Positions 32,434 through 44,178 of a DNA stretch of 48,685 nt are shown one piece after another. The translations under genes and the position numbers were made by a program. The stretch's first letter is position 1, and each line of letters starts with the position of its first letter. This stretch comes from Candidatus Levybacteria bacterium RIFCSPHIGHO2_01_FULL_36_15 (GTDB lineage Bacteria; Patescibacteriota; Microgenomatia; Levybacterales; GWA1-39-11), in NCBI GenBank assembly GCA_001782015.1, contig MFNJ01000060.1, positions 1-48,685 on the forward strand. The letters run 5' to 3'. Below the pieces are notes generated by a model. The model worked only from the letters and a program-made list of their open reading frames with translations, did not search any database and was not told where the DNA came from.

Positions 32434-33423
32434 ATGAAGAAGGTTGTTGTGATAGGTGGAGGTACAGGCGTATTCACCGTTCTTTCCGGCCTTAAAATTT
32501 ATCCCTATAAACTTTCCGCTATTGTTTCTATGGCAGATGACGGGGGATCAACAGGAACATTGCGTGAGGAATTTGGAATTTTACCGCCAGGAGATATAAG
32601 GCGAGCTTTAATTGCGCTTTCTGATGCCAACAACAAGACTCTTTCCGAACTTTTTAATTTCAGGTTTGAAGAAGGGTCAAGTCTTAAAGGGCACAGTCTT
32701 GGTAATCTTTTAATAACCGCGCTGGAACGGATAACCGGTAATTTTCGTGACGCAATAAAAGAAGCTACAAAGATATTAAACGTAAAAGGGGACGTTGTTC
32801 CGGTAACTCTTGAGGCAACCCATCTATATGCTGAACTTGAGAATGGGGAAGTAATTGAAGGAGAAACAAATATAGATATTCCCAAACATGATGGTAAACT
32901 GCACATTAAAAAACTTTTTTTACACCCAAAAGTTATTGCCAATCCTGATGCTGTTGCAACCATTAGAAAAGCGGATATAATCATACTTGGTCCGGGAGAT
33001 TTATATACTTCTATTCTTCCTAATTTGCTGGTTGATGGAATTACAGGAGCAATTGTCAGTTCAAAAGCCCAAAAAATCTGCGTTGTAAATATTATGACAA
33101 AACTTGGGGAAACTTACGGGTTTTGCGCTTCTGATTTTCTTAGAACTCTTGAGACATACCTGGGCAAAAATATTGTTAATTATTGTGTTGTAAATATTCA
33201 AAGGCCCAATAAAGATCTTCTTTTAAAGTATCAGAGGGAAAAAGATGACTTTGTAAGATTTGATAAAAATAATTTTAAAAACAGCAGAGTAAAAATAATT
33301 ACCGGAAATTTCTTAAGGCGCGGAACATTTTTAAGGCATGATCCAACAAAACTTGCTGAATCTCTATCAAAAATTATCAATCAAAGAAGAATTGGCTTCT
33401 TTAAGCTTCCAACCAATGGATAA
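32434..33423 (+). CDS. yvcK: YvcK/CofD-like protein (gluconeogenesis factor family)
   Basis: A 329-residue Rossmann-like protein. VVVIGGGTGVFTVLSGL opens the nucleotide-sugar-binding site; MADDGGSTGTLREEFG, PPGDIRRALIAL, GHSLGNLLI and LGPGDLYTSILPNL are all family signatures. In Firmicutes YvcK binds UDP-sugars and influences cell-wall synthesis and carbon use; it is not a true CofD transferase in organisms without F420. The function here is by homology. Its last bases overlap the likely nth start by 8 nt. Confidence 0.93.
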   Translation: MKKVVVIGGGTGVFTVLSGLKIYPYKLSAIVSMADDGGSTGTLREEFGILPPGDIRRALIALSDANNKTLSELFNFRFEEGSSLKGHSLGNLLITALERITGNFRDAIKEATKILNVKGDVVPVTLEATHLYAELENGEVIEGETNIDIPKHDGKLHIKKLFLHPKVIANPDAVATIRKADIIILGPGDLYTSILPNLLVDGITGAIVSSKAQKICVVNIMTKLGETYGFCASDFLRTLETYLGKNIVNYCVVNIQRPNKDLLLKYQREKDDFVRFDKNNFKNSRVKIITGNFLRRGTFLRHDPTKLAESLSKIINQRRIGFFKLPTNG

Positions 33424-34036
33424 AAAGGTCAGAGAAATTACAAAAGTATTAGACAAACTTTTTCCAAATCCCAAGATTGCTTTAAATTATTCAAATATTT
33501 GGCAGTTATATGTTGCTGTTGTTTTGTCCGCCCAAAGCACGGATAAAAAAGTTAATGAAATGACAAGAAAATTATTTAAAAAATACAAAACAGTTGAAGA
33601 CTATAAAAATGCCACAATGTTAGAACTGCAAAATGATATAAAACAAATCGGCTTATTCAGAAATAAGGCAAAAAATATAATAAAAGCGGCAGAAATAATA
33701 GATGCGAAACATAAAGGAAAAGTTCCAAAAACAATGAAAGATTTATTAGAGCTTCCCGGAGTGGGCAGGAAAACTGCTAATGTTATTTTAAATGTTGGTT
33801 TTGGAATTATGGAGGGAATTGCGGTTGATACTCACATTGCAAGATTGTCTAAATTATTTGGGCTAACCAATCAAAAAGATCCAAATAAGATAGAAAAGGA
33901 TTTATTAAAAATAGTTCCTAAAAAAGATTGGAAAAAGTTCAATTTACAAATGGTTTTATACGGTAGGCAATATTGTTCTGCTCACTGCAAGCACACAAAC
34001 TGCCCGTTGAAAAAATCTGTTGTTAAACTAAACTGA
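33416..34036 (+). CDS. nth: Endonuclease III-like DNA glycosylase with a rearranged iron-sulfur region
   Basis: About 206 residues from ATG 33416, which overlaps the yvcK stop by 8 nt; the frame extends further upstream to 33338, but the extra residues lie inside yvcK and look spurious. The helix-hairpin-helix LPGVGRKTANVIL with the catalytic Lys, and AVDTHIARL with the catalytic Asp, are intact, so it should remove oxidised pyrimidines and cut at abasic sites. The C-terminus reads CSAHCKHTNC, i.e. C-x3-C-x4-C, instead of C-x6-C-x2-C-x5-C, and the fourth Cys is absent. The [4Fe-4S] cluster is therefore probably lost. Confidence 0.9.
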   Translation: MDKKVREITKVLDKLFPNPKIALNYSNIWQLYVAVVLSAQSTDKKVNEMTRKLFKKYKTVEDYKNATMLELQNDIKQIGLFRNKAKNIIKAAEIIDAKHKGKVPKTMKDLLELPGVGRKTANVILNVGFGIMEGIAVDTHIARLSKLFGLTNQKDPNKIEKDLLKIVPKKDWKKFNLQMVLYGRQYCSAHCKHTNCPLKKSVVKLN

Positions 34037-34077
34037 AACCCCTTTTATGATTATTCATGAAGCATGAATCTGGGTTT
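34036..34077. terminator. Possible bidirectional terminator between convergent genes
   Basis: An outer stem AAACCC (34036-34041) with GGGTTT (34072-34077) encloses a perfect inner stem ATTCATG (34053-34059) with CATGAAT (34063-34069), loop AAG. It spans the junction of nth and the convergent gene. T-runs are short, so function is uncertain. Confidence 0.35.
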
Positions 34078-34767
34078 AACTGGTGAATTATGAGAGTTGC
34101 CAAAAATTCTTAGATGGTAATTGTTGGTTGCTAACTCTTGAACTATTTTTGCCATTTCAGAAAGACTGGCTTGGGCCATGATTGCTGTTTCTTCAGTTTT
34201 AGATACCGGAATTCCTCTTGTAGTAACAGAATCAATGTAGCCCGCTGTCATAGGGTTTTCTACATGGGTCACTTCCGATATTACTGCCGGCCAAGTTAAT
34301 CTTTGGACGCTTGGATTTGGCACATCAATAGTCAAACGGGTAAATTCTACAGTTTCTGATCCTTTTGGAAAAAGTTCCAATTGTCCTTTTTCAATTGCTG
34401 ATTTTTGGCTTATTAAAATTCCTATCGAAGCCGGTCTTGATCTTTCCGGAATTTCATTGTCGCTGGCAGGATAGAAATTTATTTCAAAAGCTGGCTCCGG
34501 GCCATGTTCCATTTCAGAGTAAGATTTATTTAATACTTTATTTGGATCAATGTCCATCACCTGGCGCGGGGTGACCTGCTTTGGATCAAAACCATATATT
34601 CTCCAACCTGCAGGATCTTTTTGGGTCATCTGATTTTCTATACGATCTCGAAATTCCAATAGATCTTTTGCTATGCCTTTATGATGATTAAGAATATCTT
34701 CCTCAAGCCTTAAAAGTTTTGGATCTGTCTCTTCTCTTCTTATATCAAAATCTGACTCTCCCGCCAT
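34051..34767 (-). CDS. Protein of unknown function
   Basis: A 238-residue soluble protein, not recognised. Residues 1-55 are helical and charged (LRLEEDILNHHKGIAKDLLE), residues ~60-175 are mixed with beta-like runs (EFTRLTIDVPNPSV), and ~175-238 are helical at first (ETAIMAQASLSEMAKIVQEL), then end in a short beta run. No signal peptide or membrane span. It is convergent with nth and is transcribed away from the AAA+/transglutaminase genes. It has its own -10 box, and may or may not be linked to that system. Confidence 0.6.
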   Translation of the reverse strand: MAGESDFDIRREETDPKLLRLEEDILNHHKGIAKDLLEFRDRIENQMTQKDPAGWRIYGFDPKQVTPRQVMDIDPNKVLNKSYSEMEHGPEPAFEINFYPASDNEIPERSRPASIGILISQKSAIEKGQLELFPKGSETVEFTRLTIDVPNPSVQRLTWPAVISEVTHVENPMTAGYIDSVTTRGIPVSKTEETAIMAQASLSEMAKIVQELATNNYHLRIFGNSHNSPVKPRFMLHE

Positions 34768-34773
34768 AAATAT

Positions 34774-34779
34774 ATTATA
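34774..34779 (-). promoter_or_regulatory. -10 box of the unknown gene at 34051-34767
   Basis: On the minus strand a perfect TATAAT lies 6 nt before the ATG at 34767. No good -35 was found. A second overlapping TATAAT sits 5 nt further upstream. Confidence 0.45.
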
Positions 34780-34832
34780 TTATAAAAATTTTCTATCTAA
34801 CATTGGTATTTTCCAAGTTTTAAATCCATAAC

Positions 34833-35237
34833 CTAATCAGCAGGTAATATTTTATATTGTGTACAATTTTGATTGTGCGTACCAATCATAAGCTGCACGT
34901 TTTTTTGGATTCCCGATTTTTCATACACAAATGTACCAAGGAGATTTTTATTATTAACATTTTGAATGCATGATTTTAAAGAAAGCAAAGTATCGTTTGA
35001 TTTTATGCAAAACTCATCCGCGTATTTGGTATCTTTTAGTATCTTATTTAGCATCTTATACGTTTCCGAATTAGATTTTTTGACACAATTATTTAAATTT
35101 GTTGTGGCTGGTTCAATAAGAGATACGTAAACGTAGTAAATAATAAGTATCAAAAGAAAAAGAACAGCAATAAAATTAGAGGTTGATATCTTGAGAGAAT
35201 AAGAATTGGGAGAATCTTTTTGGTTGTTATTTGCCAT
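34833..35237 (-). CDS. Small single-pass membrane protein with four extracytoplasmic cysteines
   Basis: A 134-residue protein with a polar Asn/Ser-rich N-terminus, one membrane helix (about 21-40), and an outer domain with Cys at 51, 77, 90 and 125 that could form two disulfides. No family was recognised. It is divergent from the AAA+ gene across a 162-bp gap with opposing promoters, so shared regulation with the AAA+/transglutaminase genes is possible. Confidence 0.6.
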   Translation of the reverse strand: MANNNQKDSPNSYSLKISTSNFIAVLFLLILIIYYVYVSLIEPATTNLNNCVKKSNSETYKMLNKILKDTKYADEFCIKSNDTLLSLKSCIQNVNNKNLLGTFVYEKSGIQKNVQLMIGTHNQNCTQYKILPAD

Positions 35238-35244
35238 TAATTAA

Positions 35245-35250
35245 AGTATA
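35245..35250 (-). promoter_or_regulatory. -10 box of the four-cysteine membrane protein gene
   Basis: On the minus strand TATACT ends 7 nt before the ATG at 35237. The nearest -35-like TTGAAA (35272-35277) is 21 nt away, which is too long to be convincing. Confidence 0.4.
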
Positions 35251-35306
35251 TCAAATTTTTTAAAACCACTTTTTCAATATCTGAATGTTCCGATGTGTCA
35301 TATCTA

Positions 35307-35325
35307 TTCCACTTTCGGGGTGGAA
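35307..35325. repeat. Hairpin in the divergent control region
   Basis: TTCCAC (35307-35312) pairs with GTGGAA (35320-35325) around TTTCGGG. It lies between the two divergent promoters and upstream of the -35 of the AAA+ gene. It could be an operator palindrome, because no T-run follows. Confidence 0.4.
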
Positions 35326-35364
35326 GGTTAATATCAATGACCTATTTTTTAATAAAAGATATAC

Positions 35365-35393
35365 TTGTCTTTTAATATTTTATTAAATACACT
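35365..35393 (+). promoter_or_regulatory. Leaderless promoter of the AAA+/transglutaminase operon
   Basis: TTGTCT (35365-35370), exactly 17 nt, TACACT (35388-35393), then 6 nt to ATG 35400. Confidence 0.6.
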
Positions 35394-35399
35394 AATAAT

Positions 35400-38099
35400 A
35401 TGGAAACAGCAGGCGCGGAAGCAAGAGACAAAGGATCAGTGCCGTATATTAAAGAGTCAAGAAAAATATTTAGACAAGAATTAAAAGGTGTTTCAGTAAC
35501 CGCAGAACAAACGAAGACTCTTAAAAGAGTAGTTGATGTTTATGAATCGGGACTTTATGAAGCTATTTATAATAAGGCATTAAATGAAGACGTTATAGAG
35601 TCGGCTTCTTTTGTGGTACGTACAAAAGGATTAAAAAAACCACCACAAGATGATGGTGAAAAAGGACTCTCAATTGCAAAAAGAGAAAATGCGAAAAAAG
35701 TGTTCGGATGGTTTGACAAACATTACAATGGAGCAACATCTCTTTTATTTGCCCAATTTAAAGATAAAGAAGGGAATTTTTCAAATTCTGGAATTGAAGA
35801 AGATCTAAAAGAACTTATAGGCTCTAACTTATCACACTGGATTATAATTAGAAAAGGCTTGGGAAGTGCGTATAAAAAGGAACTTGAGGATAAACAGCTT
35901 GCGCAGACAACTAGATTTTTGATAGATCTCTCTCCAAAATTTGCAGCCCTTAAAAAACATGTTAATTTAGAAAGCGGAGACTTATTACATGATGTTGATT
36001 CTCTTATGGTAACATCTGAAGTTGAAGAACAAGTACTTGAGCTTGATGAACAAATAAAAGCATTTGAAACTAAGGAATGGATAGCAAACACAGCCAAAGA
36101 AGCAAAATTAGGAAGAAAAATTTATGAAACACCATACTATAGAGATCTTCTGGATAGATTGCACTTTATGAGTCAAAAGAAAAATGGAGTAGGGGGAGTA
36201 ATTTTATACGGTCCTCCAGGGACAGGAAAAACAGAACTTTTGCAGGAGAAGAATAAAGAGCAGGGATATAAAAGCAGGGTAATAAATATTCACCACTATA
36301 CAAGTTTTGAAGATCTATTAGCGAGTAAATCTATACAGCTTGGAATAGATAGGGGAGCAAGTTTGGTTCAGAAACTTTCTGCTGTTGTTGATATGTATCA
36401 AAAAGAAGATCCACAGAGGTTTATGGATTATATGCAAGAAATATATAATCAGCTGAAGATTGAAGGAAAAGTGAGTGAAGGACAAACATTCGGAAGTTTT
36501 ATGTCTTCTATTGTAAGTGCTGGTGCCGCTGAAGTTTTGGGCGAGAGAACAATTAGTTCAAAAGAAGATTTGACAGATAAAGAAAGAGAAATAGTAAAAT
36601 CTGGTTTTATTGACAGACAAAAAGCAAGAATCGCAAGAGCAGCTTTACCAGATGCAAGTCAGGAATCAATTGAAGATATTGTAAAGGGAGAAATTTTAAC
36701 AGCTATTGCCAATAATGAACGAGTAGTATTGGATGAACTTGATAAAGCCGGACCAAATTCCCTGGGCGGAATACTGAGCTTCCTGGCAAAATCACCCGGT
36801 GAATCATTCGTTATTGGAAGTTCTAAACAGGAAATTCCCGCATGGTTTTCTGTTGATGCAACCAGTAACAGCATGGATCTTAACGATTACCTGAAAGATA
36901 GATTTAGTCATTTTGAAGTAGGTATGCCGCCAGTCAAAGATCAATTGATGATTGCTGCTGTCAGACTTTCTGATGATCAGGGCAATATTCTTCTTTCTGA
37001 TTATGAACAAAAACAATTGGTGGGATTTTTTATTTATGTAGTTCCGGAGGTTAATAAAGTCATGGAGGCGAACAAACTTCCACCCCTTTCTAATAGAAGC
37101 ATCCAGGAACTGACTAGCTATTTAGTAAATTTCGGGAAGATGAGGCGAACAGATGTTTCGTTCAGGGAGGCAGTAAAAATGCTTTTAGTTCAGAATAAGC
37201 TGTGGGCTAAAGACGAAAATGTACTAAACGCAATCAATAATATGCTCTCAAGCTATAACAATATTGTTAAAAATAAACCTTATGACCTTAGCGAGGAAAC
37301 TGCTCCCACAAAAGCACATCTTGGTTTAAAAGATAAATCTGAAAGTGGCTTGAAATCATCAATACATTCTCCTGTTGTTCTTGCAATAAATGGATTAATT
37401 GAGGAACCAAACGAAATATCAGAACCAAAAATTGTAAGAGTAGAATTACACGAAAAACAAAAAACATATATACAAAGTTCTATAGAGGCAGAAAAAACAG
37501 CGACCAAAGCAAGAGGAGATGTAAGAGAGCTTGCAACCGGAATACTACTTAGTAAAACAACTAATCAAGATGGATTAGGGCTTTATTATGTTCCAGGAGA
37601 CGGTGATCTCCAACTTTTGCTGTGGAACGCAATTGGTATTCAAGGTAAAATCGCGGCCGCCTCAGAGGATGGTAAAAGAGCAGTTGTTCTTAAACCAGGA
37701 AATAAAGGCTATGAAGAACCCTGCGTGTTAACACTGTTTGGACAAAGTAATGCAGAGCTTAATGGACTAGGAGAGGTTAAAGCTGGAAGTGATGTTGAGA
37801 TGGATATGACAGGAAGGTTTACATGTGTTTTAGATAAAGGTGATAGACAACTTTTGGTATATGATAAAAAAGGAGGTAAAAAATATCTACAGTCAATCTC
37901 CCGTTTTTCTCTTTCTAAAGACGGAAAATTATTGATAACGGAAGATTTTGATGGGAAAACTTCTGTCATGTTTACCAGTTCCCTGGAAACATTTGCTGAT
38001 AAACTTTCCGGAACTTCATGGAGATTTGCGGGAGAAAATTTAATTATCCAGCAAGAAGAAAATAATCAAATTGCGACTAAAGCATTTTTACTTCGATAA
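35400..38099 (+). CDS. MoxR-like AAA+ ATPase with a long insertion and a propeller-like C-terminus
   Basis: An 899-residue soluble protein. A helical N-terminal region (1-260) of unknown type precedes one AAA+ module: Walker A GPPGTGKT (271-278), Walker B VVLDELDKA (442-450), a sensor DATSN, and an arginine finger in LKDRFSHF (R501), the last two like MoxR family proteins. Walker A and B are about 165 residues apart, where MoxR proteins have roughly 60, so an insertion (~310-430) exists. Residues ~710-899 have repeated S-x-DGK-like strands (SEDGKRAVVL, then SLSKDGKLLITEDFDGK) like WD40/TolB blades. MoxR proteins often work with vWA proteins and a membrane transglutaminase; here the third gene is a transglutaminase. 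It leads the operon. Confidence 0.7.
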   Translation: METAGAEARDKGSVPYIKESRKIFRQELKGVSVTAEQTKTLKRVVDVYESGLYEAIYNKALNEDVIESASFVVRTKGLKKPPQDDGEKGLSIAKRENAKKVFGWFDKHYNGATSLLFAQFKDKEGNFSNSGIEEDLKELIGSNLSHWIIIRKGLGSAYKKELEDKQLAQTTRFLIDLSPKFAALKKHVNLESGDLLHDVDSLMVTSEVEEQVLELDEQIKAFETKEWIANTAKEAKLGRKIYETPYYRDLLDRLHFMSQKKNGVGGVILYGPPGTGKTELLQEKNKEQGYKSRVINIHHYTSFEDLLASKSIQLGIDRGASLVQKLSAVVDMYQKEDPQRFMDYMQEIYNQLKIEGKVSEGQTFGSFMSSIVSAGAAEVLGERTISSKEDLTDKEREIVKSGFIDRQKARIARAALPDASQESIEDIVKGEILTAIANNERVVLDELDKAGPNSLGGILSFLAKSPGESFVIGSSKQEIPAWFSVDATSNSMDLNDYLKDRFSHFEVGMPPVKDQLMIAAVRLSDDQGNILLSDYEQKQLVGFFIYVVPEVNKVMEANKLPPLSNRSIQELTSYLVNFGKMRRTDVSFREAVKMLLVQNKLWAKDENVLNAINNMLSSYNNIVKNKPYDLSEETAPTKAHLGLKDKSESGLKSSIHSPVVLAINGLIEEPNEISEPKIVRVELHEKQKTYIQSSIEAEKTATKARGDVRELATGILLSKTTNQDGLGLYYVPGDGDLQLLLWNAIGIQGKIAAASEDGKRAVVLKPGNKGYEEPCVLTLFGQSNAELNGLGEVKAGSDVEMDMTGRFTCVLDKGDRQLLVYDKKGGKKYLQSISRFSLSKDGKLLITEDFDGKTSVMFTSSLETFADKLSGTSWRFAGENLIIQQEENNQIATKAFLLR

Positions 38100-38102
38100 A
38101 TT

Positions 38103-38981
38103 ATGGCAGAAAATTTGGATTTTATTTCTCAAGAAGTAGGTAGAATTTCAGCAAGAACCTTAGAGGGAAAAAATTTCTCAGAACCGGGTGCTGATTTCTA
38201 TAAAAAATATGAGGATGAGTTTATTTTTGGAATTTTACAAGCTGCACATTTTATTAATCCAAAAACTCCAACTACTACTATTGAGATAGAAGGCAAAGCC
38301 GGCATTCTTCCTGCTCCTGCGAAAAGAATAATTGTCAGAGAAGCACTTGCCGGTCAACCTTTATCTCCTCTTAAAGTATCTGAGGAAGAAATTATCAGAG
38401 GAAAACCTGAAAGAGTAGTGGAGCTTGCAACAGTCCATGTTATAGCAGACGTAAATCCAACAAGCGCGGCAAATCCACGTGAGATAGAGACAATGCTTAA
38501 TACTCTTCTTTCAGTTAGAAAATCCACAGATGAAGACAATATGTCTTATTGGTACATAGACAAAGATGAGCCATTGGTTCGTGTTCTTAAATTTCAAGCT
38601 CAGGTGCATATGCTGAGAAGAGGTGTTGTAGGAAATTACGATTCTTTATCACTTCCTTTAAACAATCCTGATGATTTGCGAAAAGCTATTGAACAATATA
38701 GAAAATCTCTCGCAGGCGTTTTATCTTTTGACCCTTCCAAAAGACCAAGCGAAGATCAAATTCCTCATATCGTTTTTAACCGTTCCATTGCGGATAAAAT
38801 CTCTATAGATGAAAAATATCCTAAAATCCATCTTCCTGTTGTTGTTGCTCCAAAAGACTATCGTACCGGAATTGGTGGTTATTCTTATCACCACACATCT
38901 GTTCTTGGCGGAATTCCTTCGGGGATGTCATTGATAATAGTAAATCCTGGTGGAAATGTGGATCTTGCAAAACAAGGTTGA
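38103..38981 (+). CDS. Unknown protein between the MoxR-like ATPase and transglutaminase
   Basis: A 292-residue soluble protein, three nucleotides after the AAA+ gene, so co-translated. No firm family. The segment VHVIADVNPTSAANPREIE (about 120-138) vaguely recalls a degenerate vWA metal-site strand, which would fit the usual MoxR partner, but the DxSxS residues are not conserved, so this is weak. The C-terminus is rich in Gly/Tyr/His (GIGGYSYHHTSVLGG). No signal peptide or membrane helix. It probably works in the cytoplasm with the ATPase. Confidence 0.55.
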   Translation: MAENLDFISQEVGRISARTLEGKNFSEPGADFYKKYEDEFIFGILQAAHFINPKTPTTTIEIEGKAGILPAPAKRIIVREALAGQPLSPLKVSEEEIIRGKPERVVELATVHVIADVNPTSAANPREIETMLNTLLSVRKSTDEDNMSYWYIDKDEPLVRVLKFQAQVHMLRRGVVGNYDSLSLPLNNPDDLRKAIEQYRKSLAGVLSFDPSKRPSEDQIPHIVFNRSIADKISIDEKYPKIHLPVVVAPKDYRTGIGGYSYHHTSVLGGIPSGMSLIIVNPGGNVDLAKQG

Positions 38982-39004
38982 TATAGAATAGTAATAAAAG
39001 ATAT

Positions 39005-42000
39005 ATGGAACAAAGAGAATCTAATGAAAAGTTAATGCCTCGAATTTCTCCGGATGAAGTGTGGACGAGATTTGAGGAATTTCAATTAAAAGCACAGGAA
39101 GGCTTTCAAACACAAGCCGCAAGATTTGGTTATTATGGAAGATTTCTGCACTCATTAAGCACTTTTCTCAAACAACCTGAATTGTCTGACACTGATTCTG
39201 CTGAAAAAGCAAAAGTTGTAGACAAACTATTTTATCATCATGAAGATGTAGCGCCTGTTCCTATTGGATTTTGTATAGATGCAAAAAAAAGAGTTCAGGA
39301 AGAAATACTTGATCAAGCTACACATCAACCTTTAGGAGAACGATGGAATCAAGAGTTGCGTTTTTTCTCCGGTATAACTGAGGCAGAATTACACGATACT
39401 ACACTTGGCTTTAATAAGGAAAAACAAGCCGCAGATCGTTTAAGAAAACTAACAGAAGCCGGTCCTAAAAATGAAGAGGAGTTGCCGGTGCAACAAGAAG
39501 TTGACGCACATGAAAAACGAGTTAAACGAGTTAAGGAAACTACTCTTGCTCTTTTAGGTAAAAAAGATCCTGAACTTGCTGATGATATTGCGCAAAGTAA
39601 ACGATTTACTGAAACATTAGCGGGTATGGTTCAAGAAGCAGAATATTCGCCAGACACAATAAAGGAAAATTTGGAAATGTATGAAGATTATCTTAAAAAA
39701 CCAGACGGTTCTTCTTGGAGTGATGAATTGTTTCTCAGGGCAAGCATAGGTCAACATGAAACAGTTAGAAAAAAATTACAGGGAATACTATCTAATGCTC
39801 AAAGTATAGATTTTATATGGAAAAAGTGGGCAGAAAAAGGACATATTCCTACATCTCTTCTTTATTCCTTTCAGGAGCTTACCGCTCTTATTGAACTTCA
39901 AGAGACCGCTGAAATTGTAAAAGGAACTTCTCCCCAGACTAAGGCAAAAGCTCTTACTCCGTTTATAGAGCGAGGAATAAGCGCGGTAATGCTGGAAGAA
40001 ATTGCGGAAGACAAATATGAGTTCGCTGAGAATTTTGTTTCTGAACAGATTAGTTCTTTTATGGATTTCTATGATCAATATGAGAAAACTCAAAGAAAAG
40101 GCTGTTCTCTTAAAAGAAAAATAATAACAGCTGCAATAGCAGGTCTTATTATAGCTTCACCTTTTATCTATAAAAATTTTGCTCCGCAGGATAATACGCC
40201 CAGTGAGGAAATAAATCAAATTATGCAGGAATTATCTCCGGAGGAACTTGCGGCGCTTCAAAGTTTGAATGATGAGCAAAGTAGTAATCCGACTGGATCA
40301 GAGGAGGAAGGCGCAAAAGGATCAGGACAGGACTCAGGACAATCCAAAGCAGCTTCTGGTTCAGAAGAAGGAAGCAGGCAAGAAGGATCTAGTGGACAAC
40401 AATCTGATCAGCAAAAACAGGGAAGTGGGCAAGAAAGCGGAAAAAAAGATGACAGTTATCCTGTTTCGCAAAATTTTGAAAAACCTAAAAATAACTCTCC
40501 GGAAGAGAGAAAGCAAAATGAGAAAATTGAAATGTGGAATCTCTCAGGACGGGATCTTCTTGGATACTACAGATCTAAAACAGCTTTGCGTTTTGATACA
40601 AATAGACAAGGATGGGTAGTTAACAGGCAGTACTCTCCTACCAAACAAATGCTTCAGGGAGAAAACAAAAATATTACCATTTCTCAGACTATTAATATAC
40701 CTGGTCAGTTTATTGAACTTCCGGGAAGAGAAAATTATAAGGTAACCAAAGGAAGCGTAAAAATTACAGGAGAGGGGGTAATATATAGTGTTCTGCAAGC
40801 AACGGATGGAACTTATTTCTTGTATTTGTCTTCTGAAAGTAAAGGAAAGACTATAAATATTACGTATGATATAGGAAAAGCAGATAAAGTTGCTACTCCT
40901 GCTCCTTCTGAAAATGAGATTAAAGAAATGAAAACAAAAATTGCCGATGTTAATAGTTTTCCTCAGGAAACTAAGGATTTTATGCGTGAATTGTCAGAAA
41001 GAAAAGATCTTTCCTCAGGAGCAAAAGCCAAAATTATGGAGAAGTACATTAAGGATAATTTTCTCTACTCTCTTAATCCGCAGTGGTCAGATTACTATCA
41101 CGCGGGGGGAAGCAGTAGAATATTTTTTAAGCGGGTATTTGAAGTAAAAAAAGCAGACTGTGATGTGGCTAATACCGCGTTAGTGGCTCTTCTCCGGTCC
41201 CAGGGTATTTCAGCGCGTATGGCTTTTGGCTTCAGACATATTGAAGGAGTTGCAAAAAAACCCGAAAAAATAACAGCTTCAGAAGCGCATGGCTGGGTAG
41301 AAGCATATATAGGCGGGCAGTGGATGACGCTTGATGCAACTCCAACAAAACTAGATGATTACACAAAAGCAGCTTTGGAAAAGGAAGGCGGATCAAATTC
41401 ACAAGAAGCACAAGACATCCAAACCAGAGAAGATTTTGCCAGAACAATTGGATCAGTCTCGGCTACGTTAAGCGAAGATGAAACTATTCGTACGCTTTTA
41501 CTTGCAGAGCTTGTAAATTTAACCGCCCTAGGAAGCAGCATTCTTCTTAGAAGAAGAAATAACGCTTATGCAGACAGACTTATAAAAGAAGTTGAAAGAA
41601 GAGCAAGGCTTTATACGGGTAGTAAAGATAATTATATTTCTTCCTATCTAGAACGTAGACAAACTGATAAGGTACGGCAAGATCAAGACTACGAAAGGAA
41701 TGCGGTAGGCGAGTCAATTCCTCCTTTTGCTTTATTTGCTTTAAAAAATGATATAAGACATTTACTTCACCTAAGAAAGTTTCCATTTAAAGATTCAGAT
41801 AAACATATTAGGCAATCTGAAGTGCCCAATAGAGTAGAATTTTTAACTGAGGCTTTAGGCTTCCCTGAGGATAAAGCACGCATAGGTGTGTATATGGAAG
41901 CGTATTCCGAAATGTACAGGCAGACAAAAGATGAAATGATAGAAGTAGTAGACAACATTGGAGGAAATTACTCTAGTTATCACGGGGGACCCATCCGTGG

Positions 42001-42307
42001 ATTTTGCGACAAACTTTATTTTGGAAAACTGCAAAAACTTCCAAAACCTAAAACTTCTGAAGAATGGGAAGAGACTAAAAAGAAGACAATGGAAGAAAGC
42101 TACAGAGATTACACAAAGGCTCATAACAAAACCGTTAAACAGCTTATTAAGGATTCAGAAAAAAGAAAAAAGACTCCAGAGTTGCCAACGCTTGTTTCGC
42201 GGGAAGATTTCTCACATCACATGGATTCTCTTTTTAGATATGTATTGCTTCTTTGGGATATGGATAATAAATGTAGACAAGCAGTGAAGAGTGCTTCTGG
42301 AAAATAA
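39005..42307 (+). CDS. Giant membrane protein with an extracytoplasmic transglutaminase domain
   Basis: An 1100-residue protein. Residues 1-370 are a helical, charged N-terminal region. A membrane helix lies at about 372-390, then a Ser/Gly/Gln/Glu-rich low-complexity linker (422-485), a beta-rich domain (~505-630), and a transglutaminase-like domain with the full triad: C719 in KKADCDVAN, H762 in SEAHGWVEAY and D777 in MTLDATP. A second hydrophobic segment (829-848) could return the chain to the cytoplasm, followed by a 250-residue charged C-terminus. The triad implies protease or amide-transfer activity outside the cell. The third gene of the MoxR-like operon; TgpA-type transglutaminases are known partners of MoxR systems. 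Confidence 0.75.
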   Translation: MEQRESNEKLMPRISPDEVWTRFEEFQLKAQEGFQTQAARFGYYGRFLHSLSTFLKQPELSDTDSAEKAKVVDKLFYHHEDVAPVPIGFCIDAKKRVQEEILDQATHQPLGERWNQELRFFSGITEAELHDTTLGFNKEKQAADRLRKLTEAGPKNEEELPVQQEVDAHEKRVKRVKETTLALLGKKDPELADDIAQSKRFTETLAGMVQEAEYSPDTIKENLEMYEDYLKKPDGSSWSDELFLRASIGQHETVRKKLQGILSNAQSIDFIWKKWAEKGHIPTSLLYSFQELTALIELQETAEIVKGTSPQTKAKALTPFIERGISAVMLEEIAEDKYEFAENFVSEQISSFMDFYDQYEKTQRKGCSLKRKIITAAIAGLIIASPFIYKNFAPQDNTPSEEINQIMQELSPEELAALQSLNDEQSSNPTGSEEEGAKGSGQDSGQSKAASGSEEGSRQEGSSGQQSDQQKQGSGQESGKKDDSYPVSQNFEKPKNNSPEERKQNEKIEMWNLSGRDLLGYYRSKTALRFDTNRQGWVVNRQYSPTKQMLQGENKNITISQTINIPGQFIELPGRENYKVTKGSVKITGEGVIYSVLQATDGTYFLYLSSESKGKTINITYDIGKADKVATPAPSENEIKEMKTKIADVNSFPQETKDFMRELSERKDLSSGAKAKIMEKYIKDNFLYSLNPQWSDYYHAGGSSRIFFKRVFEVKKADCDVANTALVALLRSQGISARMAFGFRHIEGVAKKPEKITASEAHGWVEAYIGGQWMTLDATPTKLDDYTKAALEKEGGSNSQEAQDIQTREDFARTIGSVSATLSEDETIRTLLLAELVNLTALGSSILLRRRNNAYADRLIKEVERRARLYTGSKDNYISSYLERRQTDKVRQDQDYERNAVGESIPPFALFALKNDIRHLLHLRKFPFKDSDKHIRQSEVPNRVEFLTEALGFPEDKARIGVYMEAYSEMYRQTKDEMIEVVDNIGGNYSSYHGGPIRGFCDKLYFGKLQKLPKPKTSEEWEETKKKTMEESYRDYTKAHNKTVKQLIKDSEKRKKTPELPTLVSREDFSHHMDSLFRYVLLLWDMDNKCRQAVKSASGK

Positions 42308-42308
42308 A

Positions 42309-42336
42309 TTAGAATTCAACCCTCATGTAGTATAAT
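42309..42336 (+). promoter_or_regulatory. Promoter of alaS
   Basis: TTAGAA (42309-42314), 16-nt spacer, perfect TATAAT (42331-42336), then 12 nt to ATG 42349. The predicted leader is only about 5 nt. Confidence 0.5.
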
Positions 42337-42348
42337 ATTATTAAAATC

Positions 42349-44178
42349 ATGGCCGCAAAAGATCTTATTGATAAATATCTTTCATTTTTCCAAGCGCGGG
42401 GGCATAAAATTATTCCCGGCGCGCCTCTTGTGCCGGAAAATGACCCCACAACTCTTTTTACAAGTTCAGGTATGCAGCCGTTAGTTGCCTATCTTCTAGG
42501 TGAAACTCATCCTGAAGGTAAAAGACTGGTAAATATTCAAAATTGCTTCCGCGCCCAGGACCTGGATGAGGTGGGAGATAACCGTCATACAACATTTTTC
42601 AGAATGCTTGGGAATTGGAGCTTGGGAGATTACTTTAAAAAAGAACAACTGCCCTGGTTTTTTGAATTTTTGACAGATAATCTTAAGATTGACGCAAAAA
42701 AACTTTACATCAGTATTTTTGAGGGCTTCGATAAAATTCCAAAAGACGAAGAATCGGCAAATATATGGAAAGAGCTTTTCAGAAAAAAAAGCATTGATCC
42801 TCAGGAGAGAATTTTTTACTACGGACCGGAAAAAAACTGGTGGTCCCGCTCGGGTGTGCCTAAAAACATGCCGGAAGGCGAGCCGGGGGGTCCTGACAGC
42901 GAAGTATTTTTTGATTTTGAAACAAAACATGACGTAAAATTTGGAGAAAAATGCCATATCAACTGTGACTGCGGAAGATTTTTGGAAATCGGAAACAGCG
43001 TGTTTATGGAGTATAAAAAAGGGAAAGAAGGTTTTGAAAAATTGCCCCAGCAGAATGTTGATTTTGGTGGAGGGCTTGAGAGAATTCTGGCTGTAATTGA
43101 GAGAAAATCTGATATTTTTGAAACGAGTCTTTTTTATCCGATTATTGAAATGATTGTAAGGCTAACAAACAAGAATTACATTAATCATGCAAAAGAAATA
43201 AGAATTGTGACAGATCATTTTATATCTGCCGTATTTATTGCTTCAAGTGGGGTTTATCCCTCAAACAAGGAACAGGGATACATTTTAAGAAGGCTGATAA
43301 GGCGGGGCTTGGATAATTTTTATAAACTCGAAGGCAAAAATATCGAACAAGTCATTCATGTTATTGTTGAACAGTATAAAGATACAGATACTTATCTTGT
43401 TGATAATTTTGAAAAAGTAAAAAATATCATTTTAGAAGAGGAACAAGCTTACAATAGAACACTTAAAAACGCCAGAGAATTCATTGCCAAAAAATACGGT
43501 ACAAAAAAAGCAGGAGGCGAGCTTTTGGGCATGACTGAAATTTCTGCAGATGATGCTTTTTTGCTTTATTCAACTCATGGGCTATCCCCGGCTCAAATAA
43601 AAAGCTTAGGATATGCTTTTGACGAACAGGAATTTGCAAGGAAGATGGAAGAGCATCAGAAATTATCTCGGCAGGGCTCAGGACAAAGATTTAAAGGAGG
43701 CCTTGCGGATACAGAAGAAAAAACAGTAATGGGGCATACTGCAACACATTTATTGCATAAGGCGTTGCGCGATGTGCTTGGAGAAAAAGTTCATCAGACC
43801 GGCTCAAATATTACAACGGAAAGAGTAAGATTCGATTTTTTTTATGAGAAAAAACTCACTTCGGAAGAAATTCAAAAAGTTGAAGAGGTAGTAAACCAGA
43901 AAATAAAAGAAAATCTACCCGTGCATTTTGAAATTTTAGATATAGAAGAAGCAAGAAAGAAAGGCGCGATCGGGCTTTTCAACGAAAAATATGGAAATAA
44001 AGTTAAGGTTTATTTTATCGGAGGGGGTCTTTCGACGAGCTCAGGACGGCCGTATTCGGCCGAATTCTGCGGCGGACCGCATGTAAATTTTACAGGGGAA
44101 ATTAAAAGTTTTAAAATAATAAAGGAAGAAGGGCTTGGAAAAAATATCCGAAGGATATATGCTATAGTAGGAGAGTAG
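42349..44178 (+). CDS. alaS: Alanyl-tRNA synthetase, short form lacking the C-Ala domain
   Basis: A 609-residue class II synthetase that charges tRNA-Ala. The N-terminal catalytic domain begins with FFQARGHKIIPGAPLVPEND and has motif 2 around FRAQDLDEVGDNRHTTFF. The editing domain has its zinc-type metal ligands in HTATH and the CGGPH motif (AEFCGGPHV), so it should clear mischarged Ser/Gly. E. coli AlaRS has about 875 residues; the C-terminal oligomerisation (C-Ala) domain is absent here, as in other short AlaRS of reduced bacteria. It ends at a stop that overlaps an AGGAGG upstream of the next gene. Confidence 0.95.
   Translation: MAAKDLIDKYLSFFQARGHKIIPGAPLVPENDPTTLFTSSGMQPLVAYLLGETHPEGKRLVNIQNCFRAQDLDEVGDNRHTTFFRMLGNWSLGDYFKKEQLPWFFEFLTDNLKIDAKKLYISIFEGFDKIPKDEESANIWKELFRKKSIDPQERIFYYGPEKNWWSRSGVPKNMPEGEPGGPDSEVFFDFETKHDVKFGEKCHINCDCGRFLEIGNSVFMEYKKGKEGFEKLPQQNVDFGGGLERILAVIERKSDIFETSLFYPIIEMIVRLTNKNYINHAKEIRIVTDHFISAVFIASSGVYPSNKEQGYILRRLIRRGLDNFYKLEGKNIEQVIHVIVEQYKDTDTYLVDNFEKVKNIILEEEQAYNRTLKNAREFIAKKYGTKKAGGELLGMTEISADDAFLLYSTHGLSPAQIKSLGYAFDEQEFARKMEEHQKLSRQGSGQRFKGGLADTEEKTVMGHTATHLLHKALRDVLGEKVHQTGSNITTERVRFDFFYEKKLTSEEIQKVEEVVNQKIKENLPVHFEILDIEEARKKGAIGLFNEKYGNKVKVYFIGGGLSTSSGRPYSAEFCGGPHVNFTGEIKSFKIIKEEGLGKNIRRIYAIVGE

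Follow-up and report, generated by a model that had tools for sequence, protein, structure and literature searches.

Patescibacteria have reduced genomes, and an accessory machine of roughly 7 kb is therefore costly to keep. What, then, do three tightly packed genes encode in the 48,685-nucleotide stretch of DNA analyzed here (the window, contig C60 of a 1.37-Mb genome whose relatives are Patescibacteria), and is their product new? A first-pass annotation had seen in them a MoxR-like ATPase, an unrecognized protein and a membrane-bound transglutaminase, together forming a candidate undescribed system. The locus is made up as follows:

35400..38099, + strand: ORF1, an AAA_5-type AAA+ ATPase of 899 aa (ORF call, Pfam, homology to genome G044)
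38103..38981, + strand: ORF2, a protein of 292 aa (ORF call, G044 orthologue)
39005..42307, + strand: ORF3, a transglutaminase-like protein of 1100 aa (Pfam, G044 homology, AlphaFold model)
34037..42348, no strand: the variable gap between nth and alaS, which holds two minus-strand genes of no recognized family besides the operon

All three genes are placed as first annotated, with ATG starts and intergenic gaps of 3 and 23 bp. Genome G044, from another family of the same order, has relatives of all three (E = 5.6e-168, 3.8e-26, and 3.4e-148; identities of 40%, 28%, and 35% for ORF1, ORF2, and ORF3), in identical order and again tightly spaced (3 and 6 bp between genes), and thus the three ORFs are not chance frames. 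The genes are a co-inherited unit, and they do occur together elsewhere, although rarely. The genomic site in G044 is unrelated: by eye, the operon's neighbors there are XTP-pyrophosphatase-like and serS-like genes, and in the window they are nth and alaS. In G040, a third genome, the enzyme gene survives only as pieces, interrupted by stops and frame changes. The window-type enzyme is absent from 79 of the 82 genomes of the order that were searched, where weaker matches belong to other enzyme types, and sampling of 374 genomes across the class and 380 across the phylum turned up no further operon of the window type. The proposal of a single promoter found no support, as promoter-like sites occur at chance level (22 found vs. 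24.6 expected).

The operon is an accessory unit, and the content of the gap differs in each relative. Four genomes of the same family share a conserved block around the gap, comprising genes for a Lon-like ATPase and RNase J, ftsK, a RodZ-like gene, cofD (in most) and nth (33338-34036 in the window) on one side, and alaS (42349-44178), a PilM-like gene, and genes for a sortase and a phosphorylase on the other. The cargo between nth and alaS is an IS200-like transposase in G003, a TrpR-like gene in G002, a 517 aa gene without known family in G001, and small genes in G004. In the window, the gap also holds minus-strand genes at 34051-34767 (238 aa) and 34833-35237 (134 aa); the 134 aa product has a membrane helix and several Cys, and neither product matches a Pfam family above cut-off. 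Recent foreign origin was considered on the basis of base composition and is unsupported (36.3% GC in the gap vs. 34.9% in the window), so any transfer was either not recent or came from a donor with a similar genome.

Judged by profile matches, the family of ORF1 is AAA_5 and not MoxR proper. It matches AAA_5 (PF07728) with 33 bits against a cut-off of 22 and with catalytic motifs intact, and has no Pfam match at E ≤ 1 to AAA_3 (PF07726, MoxR proper), a profile for which the control, the MoxR of Patescibacterium G682, scores 7e-65. The label “MoxR-like AAA+ ATPase” is thus right as to the AAA+ motifs, which are conserved, and wrong as to the family. Two motifs anchor the ATPase core:

36210..36233, + strand: Walker A, GPPGTGKT, residues 271-278
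36720..36752, + strand: Walker B region, RVVLDELDKAG, residues 441-451

Beyond Walker B, N490 probably serves as sensor 1, R501 as the Arg finger and R566 as sensor 2; these three and both Walker motifs are conserved in G044. The spacing from Walker A to Walker B is 171 residues, vs. 65-68 in relatives of F2 and F8 (the two of our groupings F1 to F9 in which both Walker motifs were located), indicating an insertion of ~100 residues. The protein has a helical-looking N-terminus, an ATPase core at about 230-630, and a tail (650-899) without an assigned fold. The tail had been described as a propeller; we found no Pfam match to it, and hhalign detected neither similarity to other ATPase tails nor, on self-comparison, the internal repeats expected of blades. 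Incidentally, the G682 MoxR is a true AAA_3 protein encoded near a TgpA-like gene (L094:7788-12902), so the classical module is present in Patescibacteria too.

ORF2 is as unrecognized as first stated, without a family in Pfam, NCBIfam or PDB, and no membrane helix was found in it. The only orthologue found is in G044, and its AlphaFold model, built on a two-sequence alignment, is uninformative (pLDDT 38). Small proteins of other operons were tried as relatives of ORF2 and rejected, with hhalign probability below 1%.

ORF3 carries the enzyme, and its recognizable parts are:

40562..40879, + strand: beta domain, residues 520-625, N-terminal to the transglutaminase core, as in TgpA (hhalign and model)
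40910..41344, + strand: transglutaminase core, residues 636-780 (Pfam and model, pLDDT mostly 90-97)
41159..41161, + strand: codon of catalytic Cys719 (conservation)
41288..41290, + strand: codon of catalytic His762 (conservation)
41333..41335, + strand: codon of catalytic Asp777 (conservation)
41828..42292, + strand: all-helical C-terminal domain, residues 942-1096, at the position of the vWA domain in relatives (model)

Residues 670-778 match Transglut_core (PF01841) at 2e-14 (54 bits vs. a cut-off of 23). The complete triad first read from the sequence is borne out: C719, H762, and D777 are unchanged in G044 and show at least 90% conservation over 15 aligned rows. The modeled beta domain (of fair AlphaFold confidence) and core together match the periplasmic domain of TgpA (6g49) with a Foldseek E of 4.6e-6 and TM of 0.57 (target), so that the third protein does have a transglutaminase fold of TgpA type. 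With this fold and an intact triad, amide-bond chemistry can be predicted for ORF3. The earlier view was that a vWA domain had become unrecognizable. It is absent rather than hidden, and in relatives it is not a separate gene but part of the same chain as the transglutaminase. ORF3 has no MIDAS motif and no vWA similarity by hhalign, and there is no DUF58/vWA gene in the operon and no PF00092 match in the window genome's set (G000) or G044. A vWA concealed within ORF3 was rejected by the hhalign comparison and by the model, in which residues 942-1096 form a helical bundle (pLDDT mostly 74-93).

Profile searches recovered the relatives in question, transglutaminase proteins of about 840-1040 aa distributed patchily across Patescibacteria, with strong matches (E below 1e-15) in about 13 of the 380 genomes of the phylum sample. 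They have a vWA-like C-terminal region, with MIDAS-like motifs in nearly all (G646 was left out of this by-eye check). A large ATPase gene adjoins the transglutaminase-vWA gene at all 14 loci with a readable neighbor (G029, G015, G299, G692, G646, G690, G511, G638, G654, G571, G375, G346, G083, and G620). The count leaves out loci at contig ends (G183, G209, G065, G048, G658, and G528), as well as G656, G642, and the second G083 copy. Pfam confirms AAA_5 in G029, G690, G692, G375, G620, and G083; the other loci were assigned by Walker A motifs and homology. This family of AAA_5 plus transglutaminase-vWA pairs, for which we located no published name, is the larger finding.

When ORF3 is compared by hhalign over its beta domain and core, alignments to the transglutaminase-vWA proteins span 215-306 columns (E 7e-16 to 3e-19, the best value over 279 columns). 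Those to TgpA-type proteins span just 61-104 columns, and secreted transglutaminases match weakly. A tree built from the core separates the window-type and transglutaminase-vWA proteins from the secreted and TgpA-type ones (support 98/94) and, by another branch, from each other (97/95). The window operon is a vWA-less sister branch of the transglutaminase-vWA group, with one probable membrane anchor; because the tree is unrooted, the vWA may have been either lost in the window lineage or gained in the other branch. ORF1, compared as a full profile with the ATPases of the other pairs, is similar at the AAA+ level only (hhalign probability 28% or less). The same grouping bears on whether the operon is simply a divergent form of the true MoxR-DUF58-TgpA module. 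That would explain why one operon combines an AAA+ ATPase with a TgpA-like fold, but we consider it very improbable, given a missing AAA_3 match in ORF1 (vs. 7e-65 for the G682 MoxR), a missing DUF58/vWA gene, and the placement of ORF3 apart from the secreted and TgpA-type enzymes.

How might these parts work together? The product is most likely an ATPase-controlled cysteine amidase or peptidase, and the most economical reading is that the ATPase gates or remodels the enzyme. This draws on the linkage of the genes, their intact active-site motifs, and the analogy to NorQ-NorD, one of the AAA+/vWA pairs that are ATP-driven remodeling machines (PMC9976466). Our preferred mechanism, to which we give somewhat less than an even chance, is a three-gene module in which ORF1, expected to be a hexamer, would remodel or gate ORF3 by contacting its helical cytoplasmic N-terminus; ORF2 would be an adaptor; and ORF3, anchored in the membrane through one helix, would cut or transfer amide bonds of a cell-surface peptide or protein outside the cell. 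The machine first envisaged, in which an ATPase drives and controls the enzyme, accords with the linkage, the motifs, and the fold, while the control itself we infer. In its favor, TgpA has transglutaminase activity and is critical for viability (PMC3507681), and the transglutaminase-vWA proteins are encoded beside AAA_5-type genes. Counting against the mechanism, the vWA co-chaperone is absent, so the ATPase cannot engage its partner by the known AAA+/vWA mode; the low similarity of ORF1 to the ATPases of the other pairs and the mismatch between ORF2 and the small proteins of those operons also speak against it.

The preferred mechanism also depends on the topology of ORF3, for which the key feature is:

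40121..40174, + strand: probable membrane helix, residues 373-390 (hydropathy and G044 conservation)

The stretch is uncharged over residues 373-389, is preceded by RKGCSLKRK, and is conserved in G044 and absent from other relatives; the basic residues before it suggest a positive-side-inside reading. It should be noted that hydropathy by itself does not settle the matter, as soluble-looking relatives have segments that score as high. A second hydrophobic stretch (826-850) is uncertain, as it includes charged residues and is not prominent. If the first helix alone is real, the enzyme and C-terminus are outside; if both stretches are helices, the C-terminus returns to the inside. Of the original description as a membrane protein, the first stretch therefore survives as a plausible helix and the second does not stand out. 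The extracytoplasmic placement of the enzyme draws on this one probable helix, and against it (and the preferred mechanism) is the finding that the transglutaminase relatives have no convincing membrane helix, so that their enzymes look cytoplasmic.

It may be, then, that ORF3 is a cytoplasmic ATPase-gated protease in which the hydrophobic stretches are buried helices and the ATPase keeps the enzyme inactive or delivers substrates to it. We regard this as unlikely but far from negligible: the topology of the relatives favors it, and the retention in both window-type members of an uncharged stretch after basic residues, absent from relatives, does not. Such a protease could be a conflict or defense device akin to the MoxR-vWA ternary systems, with peptidase domains as signaling or effector parts. 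The patchy, accessory distribution and the turnover within the gap would fit, as would the use of peptidases, rarely transglutaminase-like, by the published MoxR-vWA conflict systems (PMC7159879); however, PADLOC gives only short P-loop-sized or weak matches, and no effector or toxin domain was recognized.

Some relatives lie in the dcw cluster, and this hints at division or cell-wall work. In G029 (L020:2617-14867), ftsA and ftsZ flank the large ATPase and transglutaminase-vWA genes, along with purine-type genes; in G015 (L039:128-8304), ftsZ comes immediately after the pair; and in G048 (L102:2913-8923), a run of mraZ, rsmH, a small ORF, and a penicillin-binding protein gene leads directly into the transglutaminase-vWA gene. 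These positions, along with the importance of TgpA for viability in Pseudomonas (PMC3507681), would suit a wall or division accessory that modifies peptidoglycan peptides or division proteins. We nevertheless think this improbable for the window: both window-type operons are dispensable and outside the dcw cluster, the operon is missing from most relatives, and the dcw-linked enzymes look cytoplasmic and would not reach peptidoglycan.

As to novelty, no published description of the operon was located in a literature search that had most subscription journals outside its reach, in keeping with its having been called undescribed. Its parts are known, and it is a variant of AAA_5-plus-partner systems. 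Like TgpA of Pseudomonas aeruginosa (PF01841 plus DUF3488; 6g49), ORF3 has a beta domain followed by the core, a Cys-His-Asp triad, and probable membrane anchoring. Unlike TgpA, which has six membrane helices, it has one probable helix (no match to the multi-helix DUF3488 N-terminus was found, and there are at most two hydrophobic stretches), a 370-residue helical N-terminus, a helical C-terminus, and a linked ATPase that is not AAA_3. The AAA_5/MoxR-clade plus vWA pairs (NorQ-NorD, CbbQ-CbbO, RavA-ViaA) share with the operon an AAA_5-type ATPase gene beside that of a presumed partner, and their vWA with MIDAS-like motifs is carried by the ORF3 relatives; the operon differs from them in lacking a vWA, in its long Walker A-B insert, and in having an enzyme domain in the partner. 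It resembles the MoxR-vWA ternary conflict systems (PMC7159879) in combining an ATPase, a partner, and a third lineage-specific protein, in their use of peptidase domains, and in accessory distribution, but has no vWA and, by Pfam, no VMAP, iSTAND, FtsH, or propeller partner. The Patescibacterial pairs have a homologous beta-domain-plus-core unit, an adjacent large AAA_5-type ATPase and, in some cases, a further protein of about 300 aa; in contrast, window-type operons have no vWA and a probable membrane helix, with neither the ATPase nor the small protein closely related to those of the pairs.

A bolder generalization, which we consider doubtful, is that Patescibacteria have a new class of machine built on direct control of a transglutaminase-like enzyme, normally fused to a vWA, by an AAA_5 ATPase; in some lineages it would be encoded within the division cluster, and in that of the window the enzyme would span the membrane and the machine would work without the vWA. 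The operon ties an ATPase to a thiol enzyme whose possible targets include cell-surface or division proteins. The pairing at 14 of 14 readable loci defines a testable family with a natural vWA-less variant, useful for studying the role of the vWA in such machines.

Some loci of the wider family show further variation. In G083 (L044:6380-10192) and G620 (L098:7704-12485), two paralogous genes encoding about 260-307 aa lie on either side of the ATPase gene; single genes related to them, of no known family, occur in G692 and G646. Loci in G238, G315, G349, and G266 (L103, L104, L105, and L106) have a vWA protein and a large AAA gene with no transglutaminase match, possibly an enzyme-less form of the system. 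In two ATPase subfamilies (L020:3952-7803 and L103:8903-12271), Walker A ends in GKD or GKN rather than GKT/GKS, which is unusual for an active ATPase.
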